Origin: Rhodospirillales bacterium
Lineage (GTDB): Bacteria; Pseudomonadota; Alphaproteobacteria; Rhodospirillales; UBA2165
Assembly: GCA_012960465.1 (NCBI GenBank)
Contig: DUBF01000208.1
Coordinates: forward strand, 6,507 to 60,329
DNA: 53,823 bases
Direction: 5' to 3'
A program made the translations under genes and the position numbers. The notes under the pieces are model-generated. The model was not told the origin of the DNA and searched no databases. It was given only the letters and a program-made list of their open reading frames with translations. Positions 969 to 20,409 of this stretch are shown piece after piece (position 1 is the first letter of the stretch; each line of letters starts with the position of its first letter).

Positions 969-972
969 CGGT

Positions 973-1734
973 GTGAAATTAACCACTATAAATTTTTCTC
1001 CTCTTTGGATACGAATGGCTTCAGTTGTCGGGGTTTTAGCCATATGGCAAATATCAGTTGAATTTGTTGAGGCGGATGTTCTGCCAGCTCCTTATCTCGT
1101 CCTAAGGAGCTTAATCTATCACACTGGAGATGGTGAACTGCTATTTCATGTTGGGGTCACACTCATTCGTGTCCTGATAAGCTTTACCCTTGCAATGGCG
1201 TTTGGTGTTACGCTGGGCATCATTATGGGGCGCTTCAAACAATGGGATGCTGCGCTTGATGGCATACTTGTTTTGGCCCTCAATCTTCCTGCACTTGTAA
1301 TCATCATCCTCTGCTATCTGTGGTTTGGGTTAGGTGAATTTGCCGCCATTCTCGCCGTAACCATAAACAAATTTCCGATCGTCGTCGTCAATATGCGTGA
1401 AGGGGCAAGAGCCGTAGATCAGGACCTTTTGCAAGTTTCTGAAGTTTTCCGACTTAGTTCTCGGCGGCGTTTATTTCAAGTGTATTTACCGCAACTATAT
1501 CCTTACCTGCTATCTTCGGCACGATCTGGGCTAGCGCTTGTATGGAAAATTGTTCTGGTTGTAGAACTCCTGGGTCGTAGCGATGGGGTCGGGTTCAAGT
1601 TGGGGATCTTTTTTCAGTTTTTCGATATCGCAAGCATTCTCGCGTACAGCTTTGCCTTCATTATCGTTGTTATGGCCATCGAGTACAGATTGATAGTCCC
1701 ACTTGAACGACGTTTAACGGTATGGCGGACATGA
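973..1734 (+). CDS. ABC transporter permease, NitT/TauT (SsuC) family
   Basis: Inner-membrane subunit of the importer begun by the preceding binding protein. About 254 residues with roughly six hydrophobic segments. A cytoplasmic EAA-type loop is visible around 'NMREGARAVDQDLLQVSEVF', which contacts the ATPase. I chose GTG at 973, just after the upstream stop. A longer frame starting from TTG at 913 would overlap the binding-protein gene by 56 bases and adds no recognisable sequence. The 3' end overlaps the ATPase gene by 13 bases or by 4, depending on which ATG the ATPase uses, so translation is probably coupled. Family is clear; substrate is not. Confidence 0.88.
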   Translation: MKLTTINFSPLWIRMASVVGVLAIWQISVEFVEADVLPAPYLVLRSLIYHTGDGELLFHVGVTLIRVLISFTLAMAFGVTLGIIMGRFKQWDAALDGILVLALNLPALVIIILCYLWFGLGEFAAILAVTINKFPIVVVNMREGARAVDQDLLQVSEVFRLSSRRRLFQVYLPQLYPYLLSSARSGLALVWKIVLVVELLGRSDGVGFKLGIFFQFFDIASILAYSFAFIIVVMAIEYRLIVPLERRLTVWRT

Positions 1735-2414
1735 CCATGATACAAATCGATATATCATCAAAGACCTATCCGCAAGATCACGTTCAAACGAATTTGTGTG
1801 TTCTTCAGGATGTTCATTTCAACATCAAATCGGGAGAATTTTGTTGCATTGTAGGGCCGTCAGGCAGTGGGAAAACAACCCTCCTGAATTTAATTAGTGG
1901 ATTGGATAAAAATCTTAAAGGATCGATCCTTATTAACGGGGAAGCCCCTACAGAAGGAGCCGTGCCTGGATATATGTTCCAATCGTCCCGGCTGATGCCT
2001 TGGTTAACCGTTCGCGAAAATGTTACCCTTGTACTGCAAAAAGGGGCATCCGAAGAAAGAGTCGACGACTTGTTACATGAAGTAGGATTAAATGATTTTG
2101 CAGATGTTTATCCAAAACACCTTTCCGGTGGGATGCGCCGTCGGGTCGCTTTGGCACGAGCAATTATCACTGAACCTCCCTTGCTTCTATTGGACGAACC
2201 TTTTCTATCGCTTGATGCCTCTATCGCCAATCATCTGCGGCGACAATTAATCGACATTTGCGAGCGCCGTTCAACGACGGTGGTATTTGTTACTCATGAT
2301 CTCCGTGAGGCACTTTACCTGGCTGATCGGGTGTTGTTTTTATCGAGCCGCCCCGGAAAAATCGTATTAGATCATTTTGTCGAAATTCAACGTCCCAGAG
2401 TTCCCGAAGGTTAA
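1722..2414 (+). CDS. ABC transporter ATP-binding protein, NitT/TauT (SsuB) family
   Basis: Cytoplasmic ATPase of the importer. Walker A is GPSGSGKTT (about residues 45-53), the Q-loop lies in 'GYMFQSSRLMPWLTVREN', the signature is HLSGGMRRRVALARA, Walker B is LLLLDEPF, and the switch histidine is in 'VFVTHDLREA'. All motifs needed for ATP hydrolysis are intact. The 'MPWLTV' segment after the Q-loop is typical of nitrate/taurine ATPases. ATGs at 1722, 1731 and 1737 are all possible starts; the one at 1731 would give an ATGA overlap with the permease stop. No terminator-like structure separates it from the next gene about 80 bases away. Confidence 0.93.
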   Translation: MADMTMIQIDISSKTYPQDHVQTNLCVLQDVHFNIKSGEFCCIVGPSGSGKTTLLNLISGLDKNLKGSILINGEAPTEGAVPGYMFQSSRLMPWLTVRENVTLVLQKGASEERVDDLLHEVGLNDFADVYPKHLSGGMRRRVALARAIITEPPLLLLDEPFLSLDASIANHLRRQLIDICERRSTTVVFVTHDLREALYLADRVLFLSSRPGKIVLDHFVEIQRPRVPEG

Positions 2415-2496
2415 AATTAAATTTATTAAAAAATCACCCGAAATTATTGTCTGGACTGGTTGAGATAAACGCAATTGATATGGGAGCGATAGGTGA

Positions 2497-3498
2497 ATGA
2501 ACATGACCTCAAAAACCAAAAAAACTAGGGATTATTTTGGCTTTGTATTTTTTATATTACTCCTTTTGTCTGGTAATTCTGCATTGGCGGAAATAAAGAA
2601 GATATACGTCTCAAACGAAAAAAGTAGCACCCTCACCGTTTTGGACGGTCAATCCTATAAAGTTCTTAAAACGATTAAAACGTGCAAACGCCCAAGAGGT
2701 GTACATTTCAATAAAGACAAGACAAAATTTTTTGTAGGATGCGCCGATGATAACGTGATTGCGATCTATGAAACTGCGAGTGGGAATCGCGTCGGCAGGC
2801 TTCGGAATATTGCAGAACCCGAAACATTTGATTTAACCCCGGATGGAAAAGTTTTGATTGTATCAAATGAAGAAGATTCAACAGCATCATTTGTTGATAT
2901 CGCGTCCGGGAAAATCATAGGTGATGTCGAGACTGGCGAAGAACCTGAGGGTGTGCAAGTTACAAAAGATGGGTCAATAGTTTATGTTGCGTCGGAAGCG
3001 GCAAATCTTGTTCATGTAATTGATGTGAAATCCATGGAAGTTATAGCGGACATACTGGTTGGTACTCGTCCCCGCAGATTTGCCCTGACACCTGATGAGA
3101 GTGAACTTTGGGTCTCCGCAGAACTGGCAGGGCTAGTTGATATTATCGATACCAAGACCCACAAAGTTATTAGTGATATCTCCTTCCTGCCAACCGGGTT
3201 CCGACGTAATGAAGTGACGCCGGTTGATTTGCTTATGACACGGGACGGCAATACCGCATTTGTCGCCCTTGGTCGTGCCAATCATGTCGCTGTTGTTGAT
3301 GTCGTAAATCGCAAAGTTAAGAATTATTTTTTAGTTGGGAAGCGACCTTGGGGACTTGCGCTTTCATCGGATGAGAAAAAACTTTTTGTCGCCAATGGTC
3401 TATCCGATGATATTTCGGTCATTGATGTCACGAAGAACAAGGTTATCAGGTCGATTCCTGTAGGTCAGGTGCCTTATGGCATTCTGATCGTTGAATAA
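2497..3498 (+). CDS. Periplasmic YVTN beta-propeller protein, PQQ-catabolism-associated type
   Basis: A secreted beta-propeller of 333 residues. The N-terminus (KTKKTRDYFGF followed by a leucine-rich core and SALAE) is a clear Sec signal peptide. About seven repeats of roughly 42 residues follow, each with a VANxxSDxISVID-like core, for example 'LFVANGLSDDISVIDVTKNK' near the end. The length and repeat style fit the propeller family encoded next to PQQ-dependent alcohol dehydrogenase systems (TIGR03866 in the TIGRFAM scheme, from memory). AGGTGA and GGGAG elements precede the start. It sits between an ABC importer and a PQQ-type binding protein. No PQQ dehydrogenase or pqq biosynthesis gene is inside the window. 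The molecular role of this propeller family is not established. Confidence 0.85.
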   Translation: MNMTSKTKKTRDYFGFVFFILLLLSGNSALAEIKKIYVSNEKSSTLTVLDGQSYKVLKTIKTCKRPRGVHFNKDKTKFFVGCADDNVIAIYETASGNRVGRLRNIAEPETFDLTPDGKVLIVSNEEDSTASFVDIASGKIIGDVETGEEPEGVQVTKDGSIVYVASEAANLVHVIDVKSMEVIADILVGTRPRRFALTPDESELWVSAELAGLVDIIDTKTHKVISDISFLPTGFRRNEVTPVDLLMTRDGNTAFVALGRANHVAVVDVVNRKVKNYFLVGKRPWGLALSSDEKKLFVANGLSDDISVIDVTKNKVIRSIPVGQVPYGILIVE

Positions 3499-3510
3499 TA
3501 TGGTGCTCAA

Positions 3511-4713
3511 GTGACTTTTAAAGCACAACTCCTTTTTCTCGCAACAGTTCTAGTATTCGGACCAAGCGGCAACGCATTCGCAGCTGAAGTAGAGAAATTC
3601 ACAATCGGTTATCTTGAAATCACTGGTGACCCCCGCTACGAAGAAAAACGGGCCTACGCGCGAATCAGGGTAAAACCCCATGACCGGCCTTTGGCTGGCG
3701 CCGAATTGGCCATGCAGCAAAGCCGTATACCTGGTCGTGCCATCAAAATGGAATTTACATTAGAGCGAGCGACGGCAGAAAATGCAAAAGGACTAGTCGC
3801 CCAAATTCATCGCATGAAATTGGAATCAGGTATTCGGTTCTTTCTGGTCGATACGAACGCAATTGTATTGAGTGTTATCGCTAAGGCTACGGCGGACAAT
3901 GGCACCGTGCTCTTTAATATCTCCGATTATTATGATCGCTTACGAGGGGCAGAATGTCAGCCTCATCTGTTGCACACAATTCCAAGCCACGCCATGTTGA
4001 CCGATGCGCTAACACAATTCCTCGTATTTAAGAAATGGCGCAAAGTCCTTTTGTTGAGAGGGGCAGAGCCCGACGATATGGTATATGCATCGGCATTCAT
4101 TCGTTCAGCAAAACGCTACGGCATCAAGATCACCGAAACCCACGAATTCAAACACGGTAACGATCCGCGTCAACGTGATAAAAACAATGTGGCTTTATTG
4201 ACCTCTGGAAGTAACGCCGATGTTGTTTTTATTGCTGATATTGAAGGAGAATTTGGTCGCTACGTTCCCTATCAAACGAACCCCCCGTTACTTGTTTTCG
4301 GCACGGAAGGGCTGCAAGCGACAAGTTGGCATTGGGCTTGGGAAAGGCATGGAGCACCTCAACTCAATCAACGGTTTGAAAAGCACGCAAAACGGCGCAT
4401 GCAGGGTCCAGATTGGGCTGCCTGGACGGCGGCCAAATCAATTATCGAATCTGTAATTAGGACAAGGTCAACTGATTTCAAAAAAATACAAACTTATTTG
4501 CTAAGCGATAAGCTCAACCTCGACGTCTATAAAGGAGCCCCTGCAAGCTACCGTTTGTGGGATAACCAATTGCGTCAACCTATTCTTCTACACAGCCATA
4601 ATGCCATCATCGACCGTGCCCCCATTCGCGGTTTTTTACACCAGACCGAGAATATGGATACACTTGGTGATGATATTGGCGATAAAAGGTGTCAATTTCA
4701 GGGTACAAAATAG
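3511..4713 (+). CDS. Branched-chain-amino-acid-type ABC substrate-binding protein, PQQ-system associated
   Basis: A 400-residue periplasmic binding protein of the LivJ-like fold. The signal peptide is visible (hydrophobic LLFLATVLVFG then GNAFAAE). The mature N-terminus 'FTIGYLEITGDPRYEEKRAYARI' and the later 'VADVVFIADIEGEFGRY'-type strands resemble the family annotated as substrate-binding protein of PQQ-dependent alcohol dehydrogenase systems (TIGR03863, from memory). The start is GTG 12 bases after the propeller stop; the nearby ATG at 3500 terminates at once. No cognate LivHMGF-type permease is in the window, so it may instead work with the NitT/TauT permease and ATPase upstream, which already have their own binding protein. 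That pairing is inference. Confidence 0.8.
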   Translation: MTFKAQLLFLATVLVFGPSGNAFAAEVEKFTIGYLEITGDPRYEEKRAYARIRVKPHDRPLAGAELAMQQSRIPGRAIKMEFTLERATAENAKGLVAQIHRMKLESGIRFFLVDTNAIVLSVIAKATADNGTVLFNISDYYDRLRGAECQPHLLHTIPSHAMLTDALTQFLVFKKWRKVLLLRGAEPDDMVYASAFIRSAKRYGIKITETHEFKHGNDPRQRDKNNVALLTSGSNADVVFIADIEGEFGRYVPYQTNPPLLVFGTEGLQATSWHWAWERHGAPQLNQRFEKHAKRRMQGPDWAAWTAAKSIIESVIRTRSTDFKKIQTYLLSDKLNLDVYKGAPASYRLWDNQLRQPILLHSHNAIIDRAPIRGFLHQTENMDTLGDDIGDKRCQFQGTK

Positions 4714-6288: not shown

Positions 6289-7449
6289 TTATATCTCATC
6301 AAGTCCGGGCTCAAGACCAAGAACTACCCTGCCGTAGGTAGAGCCACATCTGTCCCAACCGATCACAATATGATTGCTTCCCGCTTTTACGTCTCGATAG
6401 TATCTTTGGAAATGCCTGTCTGTATATAGTCCATTTGCGCCTGAAACATCGAACAGTCTCTCGACACTTCGTTTGGCTAATGTACAAGCATAGGCAGTGT
6501 CACGGCGTGCCTGCGCTCGTTCCTCAATAGATAAAGAACCAAAAGAGCGCATCTTATAAGTTGTCGTCCGCGCCAATCTTTCTATCAAAAATTTGGCGCA
6601 ATCAACCTCAGCTGCAGACTCTGCAATTCGAAGTTGAATACTCTCACGTTCACACAATTTGACACCTCGTTTGGAACTCATTTTCGCAAATTGAATGAAC
6701 TCTCTTAATCCACCCGCGGCACATCCTACCACCACCGCCGCAAGTGCCGCTGGGCCAATGGTTAGATAGGGGGTGGAATATAATTTATCTTTATGGGTTT
6801 TTGTACCTTTGGCGGTACCATCCCTTTGTTCGACACGAGAAATTATTCGATGTTCTGGCACAAAAGCATTTTCAACCTCAATATCGGCGCTGCCTGTACC
6901 TTTGAGCCCCATCACCTCCCAATTATCGTGGATCTGCCAGTGTTCTTTTTTTACCAAACATAGATGATGAGTAGGCGATTTTTTTTTTTGGTTGCCACCT
7001 AGCATAACTCCTACAATTCCCCATTCTGCAAAACGAACTCCACTGGCAAAACTCCACTCACCAGAAATAGTAGCTCCGCCAGAAACTCTATCGCCCTTAC
7101 CGCTCGGAGCCACCCCTGTTATCACGATAGGATCTAAATCAGATAACCAAACTTCTTGCTGGGTCTTTTTAGGGAACATGGAAACATCAAATGCGTGTAT
7201 ACTGTAGACTGCTGCCACCCACGCTTGGGAACCATCGCCTTCAGCTAATTCCATAAGCGATCCCATCAGGGTCTCCCAATCCAACTGATAACCGCCATAT
7301 TGTTTGGGAACAATAATCTTTAAAATACCTGATCCAAGTAAATCCTGGACGGTTTTTGAAGACACGTGTCGTTCCTTCTCAGCTTCGATGGCCCGTTCCT
7401 TAAAAACCGGTGCCAAACGACGCGCTTGCTCTATTAGTTCTTGGTCCAT
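6289..7449 (-). CDS. Acyl-CoA-dehydrogenase-fold flavin monooxygenase, HpaH/HsaA (group D) type
   Basis: A 386-residue member of the acyl-CoA dehydrogenase superfamily that resembles the oxygenase component of two-component monooxygenases (4-hydroxyphenylacetate 3-hydroxylase C2, HsaA, DszC). N-terminal helical domain to about residue 115, beta domain with 'SGEWSFASGVRFAEWGIVGVM' and 'WEVMGLKGTGSADIEVENAFVPEHR', then the C-terminal four-helix domain ending 'RYYRDVKAGSNHIVIGWDRCGSTYGRVVLG', where the D-group signature replaces the usual acyl-CoA dehydrogenase ending. No catalytic glutamate of true dehydrogenases is apparent. Such enzymes need reduced FMN/FAD from a separate reductase, which I do not see next to it. 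An 11-base homopolymer lies inside the gene at 6979-6989. Substrate unknown, probably aromatic or S/N-heterocyclic. Confidence 0.85.
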   Translation of the reverse strand: MDQELIEQARRLAPVFKERAIEAEKERHVSSKTVQDLLGSGILKIIVPKQYGGYQLDWETLMGSLMELAEGDGSQAWVAAVYSIHAFDVSMFPKKTQQEVWLSDLDPIVITGVAPSGKGDRVSGGATISGEWSFASGVRFAEWGIVGVMLGGNQKKKSPTHHLCLVKKEHWQIHDNWEVMGLKGTGSADIEVENAFVPEHRIISRVEQRDGTAKGTKTHKDKLYSTPYLTIGPAALAAVVVGCAAGGLREFIQFAKMSSKRGVKLCERESIQLRIAESAAEVDCAKFLIERLARTTTYKMRSFGSLSIEERAQARRDTAYACTLAKRSVERLFDVSGANGLYTDRHFQRYYRDVKAGSNHIVIGWDRCGSTYGRVVLGLEPGLDEI

Positions 7450-8148
7450 TCCCCTATTACACTATAATTGTTACAGATATTGATAATTATAGTTAAAATT
7501 AGTTTTTGTTTTGTACAAGCACTTTCTGATTATATAAAGGTTAATGAATTTCTAATTGAAAATTTGTGGGGCCACGCGATGCCTTACTCTAGATGCGGTT
7601 TTATATTTCCAACTTCAAATTGTTTTAACGTTAAGTTTATAGGTTATCGGTACGGTTTTAGACCAAGCTTCGTAAGATGACAATGACCAGGCTTCAAACC
7701 ATTCTAAAAATGTTATTTCCCGGGGCGGTTGTCCCTTATTTTATGTGATTGGTTCAACCATGTGCTTTATTTTAGCAACGTTCCCAAAGATAGCTGCAAT
7801 GGGATTGTTCTTACGTATAGCATTCATCGTCTTTTCTTTAGCTAAAGTTTAGATATAAAAAAGCTAAAGTTTAGATCTAAAAAATTTTTACGAATATAAT
7901 CCTTTTAGCACCTGGAATTAACGTTATGAAGTTGGAGCAGCTATGCATTTTGAGAATAGCGTCGACGTGAAATTTTGAAGGCCTAGAAGTTAAATCCTAG
8001 TCAATAAATTATTATTTCTAGTTCTAAGCCAAATTTAATTTTATTCAGATTTGATAGATATCTGATTGTCAGCTTAATGGTTACTTAGCAAAAATGGTTG
8101 CAACGATAAATTGACGCCATATCATAAGTAAATAAAATCGGGGGTAAG
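7450..8148. other. Intergenic region between divergent genes, no gene seen
   Basis: About 700 bases of strongly A+T-rich DNA between the divergently transcribed flavin monooxygenase and amidase genes. The only open frames are short and lack plausible ribosome sites or recognisable protein sequence. It contains a 22-base tandem repeat (listed separately) and is likely to hold the promoters for both flanking transcription units. I could not define -35/-10 boxes with confidence in such A+T-rich sequence. Confidence 0.6.
7840..7883. repeat. 22-bp tandem direct repeat with internal palindromes
   Basis: Two adjacent copies of a 22-base unit that begins AGCTAAAGTTTAGAT and differs at one base (ATATAAAAA versus ATCTAAAAA). 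Each unit contains the 11-base inverted repeat CTAAAgTTTAG, and the first unit is entered through a perfect 12-base palindrome CTTTAGCTAAAG at 7836-7847. A period of 22 bases is close to two helical turns, as expected for cooperative binding of a dimeric regulator. It lies about 265 bases before the amidase start and about 390 bases before the divergent monooxygenase start. Operator function is inference. Confidence 0.6.
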
Positions 8149-10461
8149 ATGGCATTAGTTAAAGATAAATTTGAAGTTGTAGAAGCCTCTATTGATGATC
8201 TGCATGACTCCATTCTGAATGGACGACTCAAAGTTGTTGAAGTGGTGCAAAAATATATTGATCGCATACGAGCTTATAATGGTATCTCGAGTGTCCTTGT
8301 GACTGAAGATGGTCATGAAGTCCCTGAGGTCGCTGGCGTCATTCGCGGAGGTGTGCAATTAAAATTTCCTAAAGAAACCAAAAAAGTAACGGAGGTTCTC
8401 CCTGATCTTGACAAGTACAAGGGACCTCCATTGGAATTTGGTCGTATGGAAACAACAGCCTCCAAGCCTGATGTGTATCAGCAATTTGGAATGATAGCGG
8501 GTATTCCCAAAGCGGGACAGGTCAATGCTCTTTCCACAATCAATATTCGCGGAGAGCGATCAGTTACATGTTGGGGGGAATATGATAAGCACCCCTCAAA
8601 AGGACCCCTGCCTGAGGGCGCACCGCCTGCTTGTGAGCTGTTTAGACATCTCCCCGATGCTCTTGAGCGTGCAACTGAACTAGATTCAAAGTATGGCTCA
8701 AGTCCAGACCTTGAAGCCATGCCGATGTACGGTGTAACTTTTTCATTCAAGGATCCCTTTGATACAAAGGATATGCGATCAACCGGCGGAGCTGATGCCG
8801 CTTACGATATTGACTTTCCTGCTCGAGACCATGGACTTGTGGAGCAACTTAGGAAGAAAGGTGCGATTATTTTCGCGAAGGCTGTAAATACTGAGTATAA
8901 CGGTCGCGCGGGAAATCCCGGTGGCAAGAATAGTCCAGACAAGATTTTGCCCTCTACATTGGGTTACCAACGGGCTACGTGGGGGGGTAATCCATCTAAT
9001 CCCTACGATACAACACGAGCTGCATCACTGGGATCAAGTTCCGGTTCGGCTTTGTCAGTGAGTGTCAATCTGGTAATGGCAAGCTTGGGCGAGGAGACCC
9101 GCGCCTCTTGTCGTGGCCCGTCAAACCATAATGCTGTTTCATTGATACTTCCGCACAAAGCGATGATTGGTTTTGATGGCGGTGCGATAGGTGCTGATAT
9201 ATACTGCGATCGATCAGGAATTCACGGAAAATCACTTCCCGACTGTGCAAAAATTCTTGATGCCCTTAAGGATCCAGATCAGGGTTATTATGACCCCCGC
9301 GATCCATTTACCACCGTACCACGTTCGTCAGTTATCTCGTCGACCTTTGCAAGTAATCTCAATGTTAAAAGCAAACGTGGTGCTTTAGACAATATCAGAC
9401 TTGGTGTGGTGAGAGAATCAATGGTCTATCCGAAGGGCTCTGTAACAGAAAAACCCATCGTAGATGGTGCAACCAAAGAGATAAAAGAGATTTTAGCGGA
9501 TAGATTAGGAGCAACTCTCGTTGAGTCTAGCGACCCTCTTTGGACACCTGACCCTGAAATTGAGCAAATGAAAACCGATTTCAGAAAGGCTCTGACCAAG
9601 CTTATACCTGTTTTTATGCCGGATATCCTATTTCGATTAGGTCAAGATGGGAAACCAATTTTTAAAGAGTTTGCAGCTGTAATAAAGCCGACGGAGTTCT
9701 TCCCACGAAAATTTTTTGGTTCGGGGTCGATGGATCCAATTGACTATTGCGTTGCATTAGCCGAAGGAACGATCCAAGCACCCCGTAATCTTGATATAGC
9801 GACAATTCAGCAGCAACAGCTTGCAAACACTTTCCGTTTTCATATCAGCCAGTACTTGATGAGGCGTGCAGAAGATTGGAAAACAGCTGGTTTCCATGAG
9901 GCGCTAAACAACTGGTCTATGCTCAATGCACGGTCTAAATTTTGGGGAGATGATCAGCGTGCGGCATTCAAAAACTGGGAAGAAACTACTGACCCCCGCA
10001 ATGCTAGCGATGGGCGTCAGGGTATTAACGAGCGGATAATGCTAAGAGAGTTGCTCAGGCGGGTAGATATGATGGTATTAATTGAGAATAAGCTTGATGC
10101 TTTCGTGCGTCTTCATACCCCTTGGCCGCCAGGTGTCATAGGACAGCCTCATCAATATGATATCCTTCATAACTTGCGACCTGAAAGCCTTTATGGGCCA
10201 AACGCAGGGCTTACTGAAATACTGGTTCCAGCGGGATATGTTACGGTCGCTTATGATCCAGTTTTCAAGTTAAACGAGGCGGGAACCAAATACGTTTCCT
10301 CACCATCAAATGTGCCTACGGAGATAGAGGAGCCGGGCCTACCTTTTTCCCTTGTGTTTCGATCAGAGCCCGGCACTGAGGACAAGTTACTACGTATTGC
10401 TTCATCTTATGAATCTGCCTCAAAGCGGCGTATTTCTCCCCCAAATTTTGGAGCACTGTGA
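8149..10461 (+). CDS. Amidase-signature family protein, unusually long (770 aa)
   Basis: Hydrolase of the amidase-signature family, expected to release ammonia from an amide using a Ser-cisSer-Lys triad. Visible are the lysine in 'GVTFSFKDPFDTKDMRSTGG' (K201), the serine cluster GSSSGSA (295-301) and the likely nucleophile in 'GEETRASCRGPS' (S320). The usual GTDTGGSIRxPA motif reads GEETRASCRGPS here, so the flanking residues diverge while the serine and arginine remain. Typical members have 450-550 residues. This one has an N-terminal insertion (about residues 50-180) and a long C-terminal half with a tail 'AGLTEILVPAGYVTVAYDP' that matches the family's end. The ribosome site GGGGG lies before the ATG. 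The nitrile hydratase 4 kb downstream makes amide hydrolysis a logical partner reaction; the substrate is unknown. Confidence 0.82.
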   Translation: MALVKDKFEVVEASIDDLHDSILNGRLKVVEVVQKYIDRIRAYNGISSVLVTEDGHEVPEVAGVIRGGVQLKFPKETKKVTEVLPDLDKYKGPPLEFGRMETTASKPDVYQQFGMIAGIPKAGQVNALSTINIRGERSVTCWGEYDKHPSKGPLPEGAPPACELFRHLPDALERATELDSKYGSSPDLEAMPMYGVTFSFKDPFDTKDMRSTGGADAAYDIDFPARDHGLVEQLRKKGAIIFAKAVNTEYNGRAGNPGGKNSPDKILPSTLGYQRATWGGNPSNPYDTTRAASLGSSSGSALSVSVNLVMASLGEETRASCRGPSNHNAVSLILPHKAMIGFDGGAIGADIYCDRSGIHGKSLPDCAKILDALKDPDQGYYDPRDPFTTVPRSSVISSTFASNLNVKSKRGALDNIRLGVVRESMVYPKGSVTEKPIVDGATKEIKEILADRLGATLVESSDPLWTPDPEIEQMKTDFRKALTKLIPVFMPDILFRLGQDGKPIFKEFAAVIKPTEFFPRKFFGSGSMDPIDYCVALAEGTIQAPRNLDIATIQQQQLANTFRFHISQYLMRRAEDWKTAGFHEALNNWSMLNARSKFWGDDQRAAFKNWEETTDPRNASDGRQGINERIMLRELLRRVDMMVLIENKLDAFVRLHTPWPPGVIGQPHQYDILHNLRPESLYGPNAGLTEILVPAGYVTVAYDPVFKLNEAGTKYVSSPSNVPTEIEEPGLPFSLVFRSEPGTEDKLLRIASSYESASKRRISPPNFGAL

Positions 10462-11632: not shown

Positions 11633-12763
11633 ATGAATAACGATATACTGCTTGTAGGAAGTATACCGCTTAATACGCCGGAGGAAGTCTTTCAAGCTTT
11701 TGGGCCGGGTTTAGGAAAATGGTTAGCATATTTGCCAGACGGTGAGATTGGCGACCGCCGCTACTGGATCGATGGTATAGGCCATCGGGTGCTTAACGGA
11801 CATCGCGAGATGGAGACAATACGTTATCCCGATCCGGATGAGAACGGTGTGGAAACCTGGCGACCTCAAGGTAACCACGATCAATACCAATTCAAAGTTA
11901 AGCCCGGTATCAAGAAGGTACGTTTTGGTGATCCAGGCTGGCGCCTCGGCTACACACGGGATGCTATAAATTCTTACTATGTTTTTCGAAATTTAAAAAA
12001 AGAGGGCCTTGTTCCAAAACACGTCCGGTTTCAGGTCTGTATACCACTGACTTATTCTTGTCTGGCAGCCTTTATTCCAGATTCAGACGATCTGGAGAAG
12101 GTTGTGCCGGGCTTCACCGAAGCACTGATTGCTGAGATTACAGAGATGTTTCGGCACATCCCACCCACGGAGCTTGCAATTCAATGGGACATGGCGATTG
12201 AGAACCGACTGATCGAAGTTCCCCTGAAGGAAGGAAATTTGGCTGGCGCGAAGGCCGAAGCTAAACGCGTTGCCCAACCAGCGAACGATATCTGTTCAGC
12301 TATCCCAGCAGATGTGGCGATTGGCTACCACTCCTGCTACGGCACCCTGGACGGTTGGCCTAGTCGCCATCCACCGGATGCGACGGGTACGGTGCTTCTC
12401 TTAAACGCTGTGGTCGAAGCTAGCGGAAGGCAGGTGGAATTTGTCCACTTTCCCACACTTGCAGCGGCAGATGAAACGTTCTTCCGTCCGTTCGAAGATA
12501 TCGAATTACGGGGTGCCCGCGCTTATGTTGGCGCTATCCATCGCCTGCATGGCCCGAACGGTCTTAAGGCGCAAATAAAATGCATTAGAAAGTTTTTGCC
12601 GAAATTTGGGCTCGCTGCACCCTGCGGTTTTGGCCGTGCACCAGAACGCCCCGGTGAATTATTGAGCGATAAGGGTGGCGATGCGCCTGCAGATTACATT
12701 GAGGAAATTTTGCGGGAGCATGTTAAAGCAGTTGAGGTTTTGCAGGACGTGATGGCTAGCTAA
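11633..12763 (+). CDS. UROD/MetE-like protein with conserved zinc ligands
   Basis: A 376-residue protein that resembles the C-terminal (catalytic) barrel of cobalamin-independent methionine synthase. The start 'LLVGSIPLNTPEEVF' and the end 'AAPCGFGRAPERPGEL' are hallmarks of stand-alone MetE-like proteins. The zinc-site pattern is retained: HxC in 'GYHSCYGTLDG' (H233, C235) and the later cysteine in 'APCGFGR' (C331). The substrate-side aspartate may be D186 in 'IQWDMAIE'. A strong AGGAGG site precedes the ATG. There is no N-terminal folate half, so this is not a full MetE. Stand-alone homologues carry out thiol or methyl-transfer chemistry in some cases. Here, between a dioxygenase and a reductase, the role is unknown. 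Confidence 0.7.
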   Translation: MNNDILLVGSIPLNTPEEVFQAFGPGLGKWLAYLPDGEIGDRRYWIDGIGHRVLNGHREMETIRYPDPDENGVETWRPQGNHDQYQFKVKPGIKKVRFGDPGWRLGYTRDAINSYYVFRNLKKEGLVPKHVRFQVCIPLTYSCLAAFIPDSDDLEKVVPGFTEALIAEITEMFRHIPPTELAIQWDMAIENRLIEVPLKEGNLAGAKAEAKRVAQPANDICSAIPADVAIGYHSCYGTLDGWPSRHPPDATGTVLLLNAVVEASGRQVEFVHFPTLAAADETFFRPFEDIELRGARAYVGAIHRLHGPNGLKAQIKCIRKFLPKFGLAAPCGFGRAPERPGELLSDKGGDAPADYIEEILREHVKAVEVLQDVMAS

Positions 12764-12925: not shown

Positions 12926-13942
12926 ATGTCTTCTAATCTAAATAATCGTCGTTGGGTATTGGTCAATTATCCCGAATCTATGCCAGAAGAGAGGGATTTC
13001 CGTCTTGATTCTAGTCTTAAAGTTCCTGAGTTGAAGGAAGGTGAAATACTTGTACAGGCCAGTTATCTTTCCGTTGATCCCTATATGCGAGGGCGCATTA
13101 GTCCCACTAAAGGATATACTCCAGGCGTTGAACTAGAAGGTTTAATGCCCGCAGGTGGGGTAGGAGAAATTATCGAATCCCGTGCGGATCAATTTGAATC
13201 TGGCGATAAAGTTGCTTTGGAGAATTTCGGCTGGCAAGAATATGCTGTGGTGGAAGCTGATATGGCTCATAAGGTGGATACTGATCTCGCTCCAATTCAA
13301 AGTTATTTGAGTTATATGGGAATGCCAGGCCTTACAGCATATTTTGGTCTTTTTGATGTAGCAAGCGCAAAGCCTGGTGATTGTGTGGCAGTTTCTGCGG
13401 CATCAGGTGCAGTTGGACAAGTGGTAGGTCAATTAGCTAAAGCACACGGTTGTAGGGTGGTAGCGATTGCCTCAAGTGGTAAGAAAATTGATTGGTGCAA
13501 GGAAATTGGTTACGACGCGGGTATCAATTATAGGAAGGTGGAGAACCTCTCGGATGAAATAAAAGCTGTTTGTCCTGATGGTGTGGATGTCTACTTTGAC
13601 AATACCGGCGGACCAATAAACGATGCCATAATGGAAAATTTAAATCTTAATGCTCGAATTGCTGTTTGCGGGGTAATTTCTCTCGCTGATAAAGTTGGAA
13701 AGCCAGATATTGGCCCCCGATATCTCAGACAAATCCTCATCGCAAGAGCCCGTATTCAGGGTTTTTTGGTTTTTGATTATATAGACCGTTACCCTGAAGC
13801 AAGAGAGCACTTGGGGAAACTCATAAGCGATGGTGAGTTTAAATTCAAGGAAGATGTCTCGGATGGAATTGAAAGTATGGCGTCATCGTTTATCCAGCTT
13901 TTGAATAGCGAAAATTTTGGCAAAAAATTAATAAAGATTTGA
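12926..13942 (+). CDS. Zinc-independent MDR-family NADPH reductase (leukotriene B4 dehydrogenase/CurA-like)
   Basis: A 338-residue medium-chain reductase that would reduce an alpha,beta-unsaturated ketone or aldehyde with NADPH. The family mark 'YLSVDPYMRGRIS' is at residues 49-61, the nucleotide-binding 'VSAASGAVGQVVGQLAKAHGCRVVAIASS' region at about 152-180, and 'VDVYFDNTGGPINDAIM' follows. The zinc ligands of alcohol dehydrogenases are absent, as normal for this subgroup. A GAGG element lies before the ATG. It follows the MetE-like gene after a 160-base gap and is followed by a 230-base gap before the nitrile hydratase. Confidence 0.93.
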   Translation: MSSNLNNRRWVLVNYPESMPEERDFRLDSSLKVPELKEGEILVQASYLSVDPYMRGRISPTKGYTPGVELEGLMPAGGVGEIIESRADQFESGDKVALENFGWQEYAVVEADMAHKVDTDLAPIQSYLSYMGMPGLTAYFGLFDVASAKPGDCVAVSAASGAVGQVVGQLAKAHGCRVVAIASSGKKIDWCKEIGYDAGINYRKVENLSDEIKAVCPDGVDVYFDNTGGPINDAIMENLNLNARIAVCGVISLADKVGKPDIGPRYLRQILIARARIQGFLVFDYIDRYPEAREHLGKLISDGEFKFKEDVSDGIESMASSFIQLLNSENFGKKLIKI

Positions 13943-14175
13943 CCTTCGGGCTCAATTTCAAAGCTTAAATCTGCATAAAAAGCACTTTAAAATATGCATA
14001 ACTGACAGTATGCTATTGTATAGAAAAATTTTATATTTAGTGTTTTAGGAGTAGCATTCGAATAATATTGTTTAAAACTTAACCGTAAATTAAATAGCTG
14101 ACTAATTGATTTTAGTTAGTAATTAAATTTAGAGATTATCGATATCGATTTGGATTTATTTAGGGGAGAAACTGA

Positions 14176-15141
14176 ATGACTGAGTTTTTAGCTAAAATGG
14201 GTCCCCATGATATGGGCGGTGAAAATGCAGGTCCAATAGATATTGTTGACCATGGAATGACCCATTGGGAGAAGCACGCAAACGCTGTTAGAATGACGGT
14301 TAGTGGCAAGAAATTGGCAACATTAGATGAGATGCGCAGAGCTTGTGAAGATTTGGGCGAACGCTATTATGAACTTAGCTATTTTGAACGTTTAACGGAG
14401 GCTTTGGTTATTGTCCTTAAAGAAAAGAATTTTTTTACTGAGGAAATATTCAATAATAAAATGGTTGATGTCAGGGAACGTTTTAACGTACCAATAATAT
14501 CCCTCCCAGATTCACATGATCATGATGGTAAACCCATACAGGAAGATGAGGTTGGTGAAGGACCTAATGATCATCAAGTTATGAATTTAGCCATACAAGA
14601 TTTGTTGCAACAGAGTAATCTAATAACGGCAAATGATATCCGTAAAACAATTGAAAAATTTGACGAAGATTATCCGAATAGGGGGCAAAAAGTTGTAGTT
14701 CGAGCTTGGACTGATGAAGATTTTAAATCTCAGTTATTGGAAGATGCAAATCCTGCAATTGAAAGTATGGGCATCGATTTGGAACATGCAGCGAGACTTA
14801 TTGTAGTTGAAAATACAGATTTGGTCCATAACATCATTGTTTGCACCCTATGTTCTTGTTACCCAAGAGTATTAATGGGACAACCACCAACTTGGTATAA
14901 ATCGAGAAGTTATCGATCCCGAGTGGTTAACGATCCGAGAAATGTTCTTAAGGAATTTGGAATAGACTTACCCAGTTCAATTACCGTTAGGACACATGAC
15001 TCAAATGCTGATATGCGATATATGGTCTTACCTCAACGCCCAGAAGGCACGGAAGGTTGGAGTGGTGAGAAATTAGAATCAATAATTTCCAGGGATGCTC
15101 TGGTAGGTGTCAGTATTCCTAACATTGAAGAGGTTATTTGA
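14176..15141 (+). CDS. Nitrile hydratase-type fusion: beta-subunit N-terminal half + cobalt-type alpha subunit
   Basis: A 321-residue hydratase subunit with an unusual architecture. Residues 15-100 resemble the N-terminal half of nitrile hydratase beta subunits, with 'VDHGMTHWEKHANAVRM', 'TLDEMRRACEDLGERYYELSYFERLTEAL' and 'NFFTEE'. A linker with an Asp/His run (SHDHDG, 113-118) leads into a complete alpha subunit (about 135-321). The metal site is CTLCSC (C223, C226, C228); threonine in the second position is typical of cobalt enzymes. The usual 'PPTWYKSRSYRSRVVNDPRNVLKEFG' follows. The missing beta C-terminal half is the next gene. The enzyme should hydrate nitriles to amides or, as in thiocyanate hydrolase, act on a related substrate. 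The beta-N-like part could alternatively be a built-in activator domain, since NHase activators share this fold. A ribosome site AGGGGAG precedes the ATG. Confidence 0.88.
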   Translation: MTEFLAKMGPHDMGGENAGPIDIVDHGMTHWEKHANAVRMTVSGKKLATLDEMRRACEDLGERYYELSYFERLTEALVIVLKEKNFFTEEIFNNKMVDVRERFNVPIISLPDSHDHDGKPIQEDEVGEGPNDHQVMNLAIQDLLQQSNLITANDIRKTIEKFDEDYPNRGQKVVVRAWTDEDFKSQLLEDANPAIESMGIDLEHAARLIVVENTDLVHNIIVCTLCSCYPRVLMGQPPTWYKSRSYRSRVVNDPRNVLKEFGIDLPSSITVRTHDSNADMRYMVLPQRPEGTEGWSGEKLESIISRDALVGVSIPNIEEVI

Positions 15142-15148
15142 GAATCTG

Positions 15149-15472
15149 ATGGCTACTCCTAATTTTTCTTCTTATACCCCAGCGCCGAATAATCTTTTTA
15201 AGGTTGGCGACCAGGTTGAAATCCGTCAAGGCATCCCTCCCGGGCATAGACGAACGCCGGCTTATATTCGGGGCAAATGTGGACTGATCGAACGTATCTG
15301 TGGTTCATTTTCGAATCCAGAAGAACGTGCATATGGTTTTGATGGTCTACCCAAGAGAATATTGTATAGAGTGACATTTAAGCAGGTTGATGTCTGGTCG
15401 AGTTATCAAGGATCTAAGAATGATACGCTTGAGTTAGAAATATTTGAGCATTGGCTTAAACCTATTATGTAG
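15149..15472 (+). CDS. Nitrile hydratase beta-subunit C-terminal half (SH3-like), stand-alone
   Basis: A 107-residue protein equal to only the C-terminal, SH3-barrel-like half of nitrile hydratase beta: 'LFKVGDQVEIRQGIPPGHRRTPAYIRGKCG' with the conserved GHxRxPxYxRGK motif, then 'ILYRVTFKQVDVW' and a final 'LELEIFEHWLKPI'. I chose ATG at 15149, seven bases after the fusion gene's stop; the longer frame from 15107 overlaps that gene and its extra residues do not fit the family. In thiocyanate hydrolase and toyocamycin nitrile hydratase the beta subunit is likewise split into two chains. Here the N half is fused to alpha instead. The two proteins presumably form a hetero-oligomer. Confidence 0.88.
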   Translation: MATPNFSSYTPAPNNLFKVGDQVEIRQGIPPGHRRTPAYIRGKCGLIERICGSFSNPEERAYGFDGLPKRILYRVTFKQVDVWSSYQGSKNDTLELEIFEHWLKPIM

Positions 15473-16731: not shown

Positions 16732-16936
16732 TAAGTTTAGTTGTACGTGCTATTTTAAACAATGTCATGGATCTATCATCATCTAGTGGGAAGGGTGTCG
16801 GTTTGACTATGGGGGTGTTAAAATAAGTTAATTCAACTTTAAATCTATTTTACACGTTGAAGTAACCCTGGGTTTGATTTTTTTTCAATACTTGATCCTT
16901 GATATTAAAGTGATAGCCTATAGTCCCGTATCTAAA

Positions 16937-17512
16937 ATGGAGTTTTGCATGCGAGCACATCCTAGGCTTGAGGCTTTCAATTTTAAGAAATGGGTCGAAG
17001 AAAATGCAGATCAGCTTAAGCCGCCAGTTGGTAATAAGTTAATGCATACAGACTCAGATATGATTGTAATGGTTGTTGGAGGACCTAACACCCGGGTAGA
17101 TTTTCACGATGATCCGGCCAATGAGTGGTTTTATCAGGTCAAAGGCGATATGATTTTAAAAATCGCCGATGACGGCGGCATTTATGACGTACCTATTTGT
17201 GAAGGTGAGGTCTTTATGCTACCATCCCATACTCTTCACGCCCCGCAACGCCCGCAAGTTGGCTCGATCGGTATAGTTGTAGAAGGCGCCCGCCATGCCG
17301 GAATGCTTGAAGGTTTTGAGTGGTTTTGCTTTGAGTGTGAAAGTCGCGTCCATCGTATTGAAGTACCGCTTGATGGCCCCGAAGGGATTGTCCACAAGTT
17401 ACCAAAAATATTTGAATCATATCATAATGATATAAGTGCAAGGACTTGTTCTGAATGCGGCGCACTACATCCCGGGAAAGGAAAGCCACCAGAAGGTTGG
17501 GTTGGCTTATAG
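16937..17512 (+). CDS. 3-hydroxyanthranilate 3,4-dioxygenase
   Basis: Non-haem Fe(II) cupin that opens the ring of 3-hydroxyanthranilate to 2-amino-3-carboxymuconate semialdehyde. The start 'AFNFKKWVEENADQLKPPVGNKLM' and 'VMVVGGPNTRVDFHDDPANEWFYQVKGDM' are near-diagnostic; iron ligands are the histidine and glutamate of 'FHDDPANEWFYQ' and a second histidine in 'LPSHTLHAPQRP'. The C-terminus carries two CxxC pairs (CFEC and CSEC) that form the rubredoxin-like iron site of bacterial enzymes. ATG at 16937 or 16949 is likely; the upstream extension to 16874 does not match the family. No kynureninase or kynurenine monooxygenase is nearby, so the substrate may come from another route, such as amide or nitrile hydrolysis of a heteroaromatic. 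That last point is speculative. Confidence 0.92.
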   Translation: MEFCMRAHPRLEAFNFKKWVEENADQLKPPVGNKLMHTDSDMIVMVVGGPNTRVDFHDDPANEWFYQVKGDMILKIADDGGIYDVPICEGEVFMLPSHTLHAPQRPQVGSIGIVVEGARHAGMLEGFEWFCFECESRVHRIEVPLDGPEGIVHKLPKIFESYHNDISARTCSECGALHPGKGKPPEGWVGL

Positions 17513-18527: not shown

Positions 18528-19363
18528 TAGGCGCACCTGCAATCCGTTGGGTCATTGCGTTGAAGTCAGAAGCTAAACCAATTATTGAAAAATTAGACAT
18601 GGTGCCTTCAAAAAAAGGAATAGATTTCCCAGTTTATAGAGATAAAAAGGGGTATCATTGGCTTATAATATCAGGTATAGGTCGAGCACGATCAGCTGCT
18701 GCCACCAATTATCTCCAGCAGGAAAGCGACGCCCCTCCATGGTCAGCCTGGATAAATATTGGTATTGCAGGATACGGCTATGACAGTTACGGCGCTCTTT
18801 ATTTGGTTGATAAGATTACTCTTGAAAAATCAAACCTTGTTGCTTATCCGGGTGTAGCTTTTTCAACAAATCTTCCTCGAGCGGGGCTGTTGACCGTTAA
18901 CAAGCCAAAAATGGATTATAGTGAGCCAAACCTTATTGATATGGAAGGATACGCTTTTTATGAAGCTGTAAATAAATTTTCCTGCCGTGAATTATTACTA
19001 CTTTTAAAAGTCGTTTCGGATGGACCTAAATCAAACGTGAAAGAACTTACTTCAGGAAAGATTTCAAAACTAATTTCGGGTAATATTGAAAATATACTGA
19101 GCTTGGTAGTGCAATTGGAGGATTTCTCAAAATTAGAATTTAAGCGACTAGTACCACCAGATATTTGCCGCCAAATTAAAGAGAAATGGCACTTTACTGT
19201 CTCCCAGGAACATCAGCTTAGTATTTTAGTGCGACGTTGGACGTCCCTATTTAAGGAAAACGCTCTATTTTCTGAGATCAAAAATCAAAAAAGTTCGAAA
19301 TCTGTAATCAGTTACTTATCTAAGGTTTTAGATGAATATGAAGTGGATTGGGGGCAGAGTTGA
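18524..19363 (+). CDS. Nucleoside phosphorylase/MTA-SAH-nucleosidase-like protein
   Basis: A 279-residue protein of the purine nucleoside phosphorylase/nucleosidase superfamily. Visible family elements are 'IRWVIALKSEAKPIIEKL' (first strand and acidic residue), 'GIGRARSAAATNYL', 'WINIGIAGY', the active-site 'NLIDMEGYAFYEAV' (matching the MEGAA signature) and 'LKVVSDGPKS' (matching the catalytic SDxxx aspartate). The middle is shorter than in true nucleosidases. A helical extension of about 75 residues with no clear homology follows the catalytic core. It is coupled by overlapping ATGA to the upstream glycosyltransferase and overlaps the SPL-like gene downstream. It should cleave or bind an N-glycosidic compound; whether a nucleoside or something unrelated is unknown. 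Confidence 0.78.
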   Translation: MIGAPAIRWVIALKSEAKPIIEKLDMVPSKKGIDFPVYRDKKGYHWLIISGIGRARSAAATNYLQQESDAPPWSAWINIGIAGYGYDSYGALYLVDKITLEKSNLVAYPGVAFSTNLPRAGLLTVNKPKMDYSEPNLIDMEGYAFYEAVNKFSCRELLLLLKVVSDGPKSNVKELTSGKISKLISGNIENILSLVVQLEDFSKLEFKRLVPPDICRQIKEKWHFTVSQEHQLSILVRRWTSLFKENALFSEIKNQKSSKSVISYLSKVLDEYEVDWGQS

Positions 19364-20409
19364 TCGATACCATTTATTTTGAGGAAGATATCAGCGAACA
19401 TCCACGTACTTTATCGATATTAGCTAAGTTTAAAGCAGCTCGAACGATTCCAATTAAAAGATTTGGAGAACTTTTTAATCAGCGGAAGCAAAATTTTCGG
19501 ATCCAGAAAAGTAAACCTTCATTGATTTTGGCGCAAAAACATAACGGACACGTTCTGCAGGCGCCTGGAGGTTTTGGCATAGGTGGAACGAAGAACTTTT
19601 ACTTCTCCCATATGTATAATTGTGTATATGACTGTCGTTATTGCTTCCTGCAGGGAATGTTTTCTTCGGCAAATTATGTTGTTTTTGTGAATTTCGAAGA
19701 CTTTGACAAACAAATTGAACGGATTATCAATCAACACCCAGAAGAAACTGTGACATTCTTTTCTGGGTATGATTGTGATTCACTCGCCCTTGAGACTATT
19801 ACAGGCTTCGCTGCCCATATTCTCCCAATTTTTAAAAATTATCCCGGTTCGCTTTTGGAGTTCCGGACGAAAAGTATTCAAGTTAATCCACTAACGTCCA
19901 TGAAGGCAATTTCAAACTGTGTTATTGCCTATAGCCTCATGCCAGAAGTTATGTCTGTTGCTTTGGATAATAAGGCGCCATCGATCAAGAGACGCATTGA
20001 AACAATGTCCAAATTATCCAAGCAAGGTTGGAAGATTGGATTAAGATTTGATCCCCTTATTCACGGTGAAAACTGGCGGACACTTTATGAAGAATTAATT
20101 GAAGATGTGTTCAAGATCATACCGCAGAAATCAATTCATTCTGTTAGCTTTGGTCCTCTTCGATTTCCAAAGGCGATGCACCGAGACATTTTTAAGCTCT
20201 ATCCTGAAGACCCTCTTTTTTCAGGGCCTCTCCAACAGAGAGGGCCCATAGTTGCCTATAGGCAAGAAATTGAGAATGAAATGGCAGATTTTTGTCGCCA
20301 GATGTTTGCCAAATTTATTCCTGACAGTATTATTTTTCAGTGTACACCAGAAGGACAGTCTCCTGAGCTAGAAAATAATGAAAGACAGACATATTCTAAT
20401 AACGGGTAG
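19360..20409 (+). CDS. Spore-photoproduct-lyase-like radical SAM protein
   Basis: A radical SAM enzyme of about 350 residues that resembles SplB. The cluster motif is CVYDCRYC (CxxxCxxC) within 'YFSHMYNCVYDCRYCFLQGM', and the CxYCxLQ continuation is characteristic of spore photoproduct lyases. Later segments 'LLEFRTKSIQV', 'VIAYSLMP' and 'KQGWKIGLRFDPLIHGENW' match the lyase barrel. Near the position of the hydrogen-donor cysteine of Bacillus SPL (ASCTSD) this protein reads SGYDCDS, so the cysteine is displaced by two residues (alignment made by eye from memory). The start is probably TTG at 19360, overlapping the upstream stop as TTGA and preceded by GGGGGCAGAG; TTG at 19348 is the alternative. 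There is no sporulation context. Substrate unknown. Confidence 0.85.
   Translation: MIDTIYFEEDISEHPRTLSILAKFKAARTIPIKRFGELFNQRKQNFRIQKSKPSLILAQKHNGHVLQAPGGFGIGGTKNFYFSHMYNCVYDCRYCFLQGMFSSANYVVFVNFEDFDKQIERIINQHPEETVTFFSGYDCDSLALETITGFAAHILPIFKNYPGSLLEFRTKSIQVNPLTSMKAISNCVIAYSLMPEVMSVALDNKAPSIKRRIETMSKLSKQGWKIGLRFDPLIHGENWRTLYEELIEDVFKIIPQKSIHSVSFGPLRFPKAMHRDIFKLYPEDPLFSGPLQQRGPIVAYRQEIENEMADFCRQMFAKFIPDSIIFQCTPEGQSPELENNERQTYSNNG

Follow-up and report, generated by a model that had tools for sequence, protein, structure and literature searches.

Genes of the locus

A 53,823-nt stretch of contig DUBF01000208.1 from a Rhodospirillales bacterium (the window, within which all positions are counted) carries a rearranged set of nitrile hydratase (NHase) genes, in which the N-terminal half of the beta subunit (beta-N) is joined to the alpha subunit in one protein and the C-terminal half (beta-C) is encoded by the next gene. 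Loci and genomes compared with the window are given L- and G-numbers, respectively. The fusion gene is a forward-strand open reading frame (ORF) of 321 amino acids (aa) at 14176..15141, and a Shine-Dalgarno-like AGGGGAG (14162..14168, +), read directly from the sequence and presumably functional, lies 7 nt ahead of its ATG. The beta-N domain (residues 9-104; 14200..14487, +) matches PF21006 (E 8e-10, 39.2 bits against a cut-off of 21.5), carries an HDMGG motif and includes Arg54-Arg55 (14335..14340, +). It is followed by an Asp/His-rich linker containing SHDHDGKPIQEDE (residues 105-133; 14488..14574, +) and by the alpha domain (residues 134-312; 14575..15111, +), which matches PF02979 (E 4.5e-73, 245 bits against a cut-off of 27.2) and holds the metal-binding motif CTLCSC with Cys223, Cys226 and Cys228 (14842..14859, +). 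The beta-C gene (107 aa; 15149..15472, +) begins 7 nt past the TGA of the fusion gene at ATG 15149, a start chosen here (the mechanical ORF list begins it at GTG 15107). PF02211 is the sole Pfam match of its product (E 1.4e-19, 70.8 bits against a cut-off of 27.7), which is an SH3-like barrel by family and contains the motif GHRRTPAYIRGK (15242..15277, +). An earlier note on this DNA, made from the sequence alone, had proposed a beta-N domain, linker and CTLCSC-bearing alpha subunit in one protein with the beta-C barrel alone in the next, and the Pfam matches confirm both parts of that description.

Sequence matches in the PDB agree with the Pfam assignment. Beta-N is closest to 2dd4_B (thiocyanate hydrolase beta, E 1.6e-6) and 4fm4_B (NHase beta, E 5.1e-6), the alpha domain matches NHase alpha chains (best E 1.9e-58) and thiocyanate hydrolase gamma (E 5.7e-45), and beta-C matches NHase beta (3qyg_B, E 9.6e-13) and thiocyanate hydrolase alpha (2dd4_A, E 3.1e-9). 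With a CxLCSC alpha domain, a beta-N and a beta-C domain recognised by Pfam in the window, the pair belongs to the NHase superfamily. It is not a classical two-subunit NHase (alpha, full beta and activator), as beta is split over two genes and no second beta-N or activator match is present in the source genome. That genome (3.74 Mb, 98.8% complete) yields a single match (E <= 0.001) to each of alpha, beta-N and beta-C, all at this locus, and the separate beta-N or activator gene that the earlier note had allowed for outside its view was therefore not found there. Thiocyanate hydrolase comprises three separate chains plus an activator; the window encodes two chains, with one beta-N match in the genome. 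PF02211 gives no match at E <= 1 in the fusion protein, which sets it apart from the complete beta of the eukaryotic beta-alpha fusion NHase, and the AnhDEA-type order of three genes (betaN-betaC-alpha) is absent, betaN being fused to alpha and betaC coming last. The lack of a separate activator gene is shared with the AnhDEA type, PF21006 being single in the source genome, although a distant activator could escape the model.

The same domain order was sought in other genomes, and fusion followed by beta-C was found in 6/6 genomes with a window-type fusion, the window included; the five others (L003/L071, L004/L072, L005/L073, L006/L061 and L036/L062) encode fusions 67-74% identical to the window protein. 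In total, 18 betaN-alpha fusions were found.

Published systems resemble this arrangement in some respects only. The three-subunit NHase of Streptomyces canus CGMCC 13662 (AnhD-AnhE-AnhA; PMC7329996) shares the betaN, betaC and alpha domains, encodes the beta halves apart and has no recognised activator gene, but it consists of three chains encoded as betaN-betaC-alpha, whereas in the window betaN is fused to alpha and betaC comes after. Thiocyanate hydrolase of Thiobacillus thioparus (2dd4) likewise has beta in two pieces and an Arg-Arg at the place of Arg54/Arg55, and its gamma (alpha-like) chain fits the window model with Z 21.5 and a root-mean-square deviation (rmsd) of 2.1 over 192 residues; in contrast, it is built of three chains with an activator (PMC7193024), and the window protein misses the family score. 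In the beta-alpha fusion NHase of Monosiga brevicollis (PMC2603476; PMC3323583) the beta part also stands N-terminal to alpha with a His-rich stretch between, but both subunits are said to be complete, whereas in the window beta-N alone is fused and beta-C is a separate gene. The engineered Pseudomonas putida NHase-(BA) (PMC4709657) also carries beta N-terminal to alpha in one chain, but it is artificial, contains the full beta and needs the activator P14K. A 2020 review lists six NHase gene organisations, betaN-alpha + betaC not among them, and calls the THI201 enzyme (Hussain et al. 2013) a solo-subunit NHase (PMC7193024); eukaryote-type fusion genes were absent from prokaryotic data in 2012, according to PMC3323583. 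A literature search with little reach into subscription papers recognised no description of a natural betaN-alpha fusion. The earlier note's view that the architecture differs from two-chain NHases, three-chain enzymes and the eukaryotic full fusion is upheld, and extends to the six organisations of the review, but the arrangement does not stand alone: the window is one of 18 betaN-alpha fusions, which have more than one origin.

A probable two-chain enzyme and its likely substrate

The pair likely encodes a metal (probably cobalt) NHase-family enzyme of two chains, (betaN-alpha) + betaC, which would have derived from a three-gene betaN-betaC-alpha operon. The first half of beta would be joined to alpha via alpha's own His-rich leader, and the free beta-C barrel would bind back so that the three domains form an ordinary NHase protomer, the metal being held by Cys223, Cys226 and Cys228 with beta Arg54 beside it. 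The His/Asp linker is not new, since split three-gene alphas are mostly His-rich ahead of the alpha domain (at least three His in the 35 preceding residues in 71/78) and this His-rich N-terminus is its equivalent. Of the split loci, the one most closely related to the window clade is L008 (G025; alpha 58% and beta-N 52% identical to the query), a betaN-betaC-alpha operon that is nearest to the fusion clade in the alpha tree, with support of 100/99 for the set.

Active-site residues were counted over 108 alpha rows, and for beta-N without 19 of the 78 three-gene rows, whose stored segments were short. CxLCSC is conserved in 108/108 alpha rows, with Ser in place of Thr in three fusions that have no beta-C gene beside them (L146, L180 and L182), a spelling that we take to be iron-type. 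Arg54 is conserved in all 89 beta-N rows counted, beta-C-less fusions included, and Arg55 is matched by R in 18/18 fusions and 42/59 three-gene rows and by H in 7/8 two-chain rows. Arg54-Arg55 align with residues 90-91 (Arg-Arg) of thiocyanate hydrolase beta, and Arg54 also with an Arg of 4fm4_B, as read off the printed alignments; because of the latter alignment, Arg54 is taken as the probable equivalent of beta Arg56, whose change to Tyr or Glu abolishes NHase activity (PMC7193024). Arg231, which follows CSCYP (14866..14868, +), is R in 18/18 fusions and 72/78 three-gene rows, and is aligned to W in 4ob1_A, 1v29_A and 2dpp_A; Trp occupies the position in 6/8 two-chain rows.

An AlphaFold2 model of the window fusion reached a mean predicted local distance difference test score (pLDDT) of 78.6 and a predicted template modelling score (pTM) of 0.67, with residues 1-17 and, in the linker, 113-127 below a pLDDT of 50. 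In VIA-align 2 the alpha part matches NHase alpha and thiocyanate hydrolase gamma chains with Z 21-22.6. Beta-N residues 27-99 match 3a8m_B (Z 7.6, rmsd 2.4, 73 aligned), the best beta row being 3qz9_B at Z 8.4 and the first unrelated row lying at Z 3.9, subject to the program's warning that helical bundles can reach such Z through a common arrangement. The sequence evidence for beta-N is firmer than the structural match. At L061 (G014) the fusion and beta-C genes are in frame with each other, separated by a single TGA, and a linked chain of 425 residues was modelled by reading the TGA as Gly (alignment A3; A2 was dropped for beta-C rows misplaced on the beta-N region). The linked model (pLDDT 78.6, pTM 0.72) aligns 203 of 219 residues with 3qz9_B at Z 11.0 and rmsd 3.6, unrelated chains starting from Z 6.7, over a range of 7-425, of which VIA-align 2 gives the ends only. 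Because beta-N and beta-C together approximate the length of the single beta chain fitted, we read the model as placing both halves as in one ordinary beta chain, with alpha skipped. AlphaFold2 has probably seen NHases.

Two further similarities were seen within the fusion protein. The C-terminal helical hairpin of beta-N (14395-14487, approximately residues 74-104) resembles the N-terminal hairpin of alpha (14578-14673, approximately residues 135-166), and among split relatives a profile-profile comparison matched the two over 31 columns with a probability of 94% (E 2e-8), against 0.5% for the remaining alpha; the alpha and beta subunits may therefore share a duplicated hairpin element. Separately, part of alpha (14902-15084, residues 243-303) scores 71.4 bits with the NHLP leader-peptide model TIGR03793, above its cut-off of 50.9, which is consistent with the reported kinship of NHLP leaders of ribosomally synthesised and post-translationally modified peptides with NHase alpha (PMC2887384).

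The amide produced would probably be cleaved by an amidase encoded 3.7 kb upstream of the fusion, where a 770-aa amidase-signature protein (8149..10461, +; PF01425, E 4e-23, part of the profile only) is a possible amide-hydrolysing partner. Its Lys in FSFKD and two Ser in SSSGS and RASCRG presumably form the catalytic triad, and a 79-80% identical gene lies upstream in L071 and L072. Elsewhere, an amidase gene shares 4 bp with the fusion gene in L063, and in L182 the fusion begins 2 bp past an isochorismatase-family hydrolase gene (mechanical starts), which brings to 5/18 the fusion loci that have a gene of amide-hydrolase type nearby (window, L071, L072, L063 and L182). These neighbours would favour nitriles as the substrate. 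An N-formylglutamate amidohydrolase gene approximately 1 kb from the fusion in L136 stands outside this count.

That the enzyme is instead like thiocyanate hydrolase, with thiocyanate or some other small anionic nitrile as its substrate, appears unlikely. Its beta is in two pieces, as in thiocyanate hydrolase, R54-R55 align with Arg-Arg 90-91 of 2dd4_B, and R231 occupies a position that is mostly Trp in two-chain NHases; the PDB titles 3vyg (R136W, thiocyanate hydrolase) and 3vyh (W116R, NHase) suggest that others have presumably swapped this same pair. However, the score falls far under the cut-off of the gamma model (below), and the arginines are common in three-gene relatives, in the proportions given above. 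The S. canus enzyme, of the three-gene type, hydrates acetamiprid (PMC7329996; its sequence was not compared), and the amide-hydrolase neighbours at 5/18 fusion loci fit a nitrile-amide-acid route.

Several other genes surround the cluster. A zinc-type reductase (PTGR/curcumin-reductase-like; 12926..13942, +; PF16884/PF00107) has homologues near the fusion in L071, L072 and also in L059, and a 376-aa protein beside the cluster (11633-12763) has 0 Pfam or NCBIfam matches at E <= 1. Downstream of the NHase genes lie a 3-hydroxyanthranilate dioxygenase-like cupin (16874-17512; PF06052, E 5.1e-44) and a spore photoproduct lyase family protein (19348-20409; PF20903, E 8.7e-22) in a gene run that recurs in L072. 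ATP-binding cassette (ABC) transporter genes with NMT1-like and other binding proteins and a beta-propeller protein occupy 3-4713; homologues of this run start approximately 1.2 kb from the fusion in L062/L036, and it may possibly serve uptake for an NHase pathway.

Cobalt loading

In the S. canus system the beta-N chain AnhD has been reported to act as metal (cobalt) and swapping chaperone without an activator (PMC7329996). Holo-AnhDA, of which the complex stoichiometry is AnhD2A, has 0.21% of full-enzyme activity and, when mixed with apo-enzyme, brought activity to 54%, while apo-enzyme with Co and dithiothreitol alone reached 36% and with holo-AnhEA 12% (PMC7329996). By analogy, the betaN-alpha fusion is a covalent form of the AnhD-AnhA complex. 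Since this three-subunit enzyme has no separate activator and relies on beta-N for both cobalt delivery and subunit swapping, tethering of beta-N to alpha would most likely allow cobalt loading in cis and remove alpha swapping. The engineered P. putida fusion of full beta and alpha is active and receives cobalt in vitro by direct transfer from the activator complex, with no swapping (PMC4709657). The source genome also carries a CbtA-family (cobalt transport) gene on another contig.

The earlier note had suggested that the fused domain, sharing its fold with NHase activators, might be a built-in metallochaperone. The domain is of the beta type rather than the activator type, but a built-in chaperone role is still plausible because AnhD, itself a beta-N chain, is reported to double as a cobalt and swapping chaperone (PMC7329996). 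It is improbable that the domain is an activator captured by alpha, with the enzyme left without a true beta-N. NHase activators do resemble the beta subunit (PMC4709657), no separate beta-N or activator match occurs in the source genome, and the His-rich linker could bind metal. Yet the domain starts, like beta subunits, with HDxGG (GPHDMGG), whose absence is our own definition of an activator, and this start is missing from 7/7 activator-like rows (one annotated as an accessory protein and six assigned from gene place; the annotated activator L192 was left out), because of which the domain is classed by sequence as beta-type. Its best PDB sequence matches are the beta chains of thiocyanate hydrolase and NHase, and in the split relative L008 the same domain is encoded separately, by the betaN gene of its three-gene operon. 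The Arg-Arg at R54-R55 also occurs in one activator-like row (L139), so the arginines do not separate beta-type from activator domains. L139 itself (7329-9008, G075) is a very divergent operon in which alpha has an end branch of 1.73 and is followed by a small beta-N-like gene; it may encode a thiocyanate hydrolase together with an activator.

Several observations weigh against a two-chain cobalt NHase loaded in cis. The alpha domain misses both NCBIfam equivalogs, TIGR01323 (NHase alpha) with 238.3 against a cut-off of 249.85 bits and TIGR03887 (thiocyanate hydrolase gamma) with 189.7 against 291.45 bits. Confidence in the window and linked models is middling by pTM, and linkage in the latter was forced by the Gly reading. 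Foldseek matched beta chains to the window model at E 0.23 or worse, and its joint alignments of the linked model are poor (7qou_B, 423 columns, rmsd 16.5; 1v29_B, rmsd 13.2). Beta-N is not strictly needed for cobalt insertion in S. canus, where AnhA on its own acquires 0.57 Co per mole (PMC7329996); the P. putida fusion still needed its activator (PMC4709657); and no NicO-family Co/Ni transporter match was found in the source genome. On the substrate side, three genes separate the amidase from the fusion in the window, no amidase lies among the neighbours scanned at the other 13/18 fusion loci (not all neighbours were scanned, and one contig is 3.5 kb long), and the thiocyanate-hydrolase-like arginines of the pocket suggest that the substrate may be an anion. 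Lastly, the distribution of the fusion within the genus is patchy: eight genomes comprise two with the fusion (G004, G007), five with the three-gene operon (G001, G002, G005, G006, G008) and one with no match (G003).

Recurrent fusions and the probable loss of beta-C

For practical purposes, an ordinary three-gene operon distorted by misassembly or a frameshift can be excluded: metagenome-assembled records predominate and that operon is the usual state among fetched loci, but the frame is unbroken and identical in six genomes at 67-100% identity, beta-C follows alpha unlike in split operons, and, because five other genomes have the pair, the assembly error considered in the earlier note did not occur.

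The order-level search gave a match in 98/317 genomes and the class sample in 54/385 at E <= 1e-60. In the phylum sample (398 genomes, E <= 1e-60, a threshold that could hide distant fusions), four genomes matched, namely the source and three alpha-only genomes already in the class sample, with no further full-length fusion; among viral contigs no stretch fitted the peptide patterns. The fetched loci are a non-random sample, in which 78/108 alpha rows belong to three genes in the order betaN-betaC-alpha (alpha rows not named by hand were placed in this class, and the printed gene orders agree). A second split order, betaC-alpha-betaN, occurs in three rows (Agrobacterium L189, Polymorphobacter L188 and L093), and the two-chain type in eight, with the beta frame broken in L028. 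At L092 (5619-6603, G030), two beta-N genes stand in tandem ahead of beta-C, and the 8-kb contig has no match to alpha.

Beyond the six window-type fusions, 12 further fusions are found in eight genomes, two each in G012, G317, G342 and G473 and one each in G075, G076, G110 and G570. No beta-C gene was detected beside any of the 12, two of which have short flanks: the contig of L048 (L066) breaks off inside the fusion and that of L180 spans 4 kb, so a neighbouring beta-C is possible in both. A stop-to-stop profile search for hidden beta-C (at least 25 residues) gave a best E of 1.8 in seven loci and 6.9 in eight more (L136, L137, L177-L182), against 2e-40 or better in the positive controls (L061, L062 and L135). 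Elsewhere in the genome, beta-C is present in 7/8 genomes of beta-C-less fusions and also in G525; G110 (91% complete) has none genome-wide, and a second alpha there is truncated where its contig stops. Because three-gene operons are common in these orders, a beta-C elsewhere is by itself no proof of use in trans. In G525 (L177, 7524-8495), betaN and alpha are adjacent and unfused, with no beta-C between or beside them, possibly a half-way state to the fusion.

The alpha tree was built from 108 alpha domains after segments shorter than 150 residues and identical ones were dropped (e.g. the G110 fragment L065), and places the fusions in four positions. Clade I holds ten fusions, apart from L008 with support of 93/49, and the six with beta-C group at 99/89. 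In approximately unbiased (AU) tests, a single origin of the 18 fusions, which were grouped by architecture, is rejected (p = 0.0003), as is the union of clades I and III (p = 0.0046), whereas I+II (0.089), II+III (0.168) and II+IV (0.184) are not; the clade pairs were named post hoc, after the tree. Because clades I and III are rejected together, the betaN-alpha fusion arose at least twice, and four origins fit best. A beta-C-less fusion would be reachable in one step, by in-frame deletion of beta-C from betaN-betaC-alpha. The window type, with beta-C after alpha, would need a further step, e.g. duplication and differential loss, such that the beta-C gene was lost from between betaN and alpha and kept or regained after alpha.

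The beta-C-less fusions are not decaying, because they retain 43-45 of 45 conserved alpha columns (38 in the truncated L048), compared with 43-44 in window-type fusions and 41-45 in two-chain rows, counted without the long-branch rows L139 and L042. The same columns were considered as a test of beta-C binding, for which they hardly discriminate, as two-chain and window-type rows overlap. G317 (Hyphomicrobiales) carries two fusions on two contigs and a solo beta-C (L135, 3511-3849) on a third, as well as a two-chain enzyme with an activator-like gene. In the beta-C tree this solo beta-C groups, with no strong support, with the beta-Cs of L008 and of the six window-type loci, in a set of eight. 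Because two fused chains and one unlinked beta-C coexist in this genome, several fused chains may share one beta-C in trans. In genomes of the beta-C-less type, the fused chain might alternatively act as the cobalt loader of a sister enzyme, but the L063 and L182 fusions adjoin amide-hydrolase-type genes, which speaks for enzymes. It is tentatively suggested that the betaN-alpha fusion is recurrent in three-subunit NHases, with beta-C-less chains either sharing beta-C in trans or acting as covalent AnhD-AnhA-like cobalt loaders for a sister NHase.

NHase is a major industrial catalyst, and whether cobalt enters it by alpha swapping or by direct insertion is still debated. A natural enzyme whose chaperone-like beta-N is unable to leave alpha should rule out swapping, which makes the question directly testable. 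Furthermore, the beta-C-less relatives raise the question of whether the SH3-like barrel, which has conserved arginines, could be dispensed with or shared and, if either a shared beta-C or a loader role is true, these genomes would hold a modular NHase system of a kind that is, as far as seen, undescribed.

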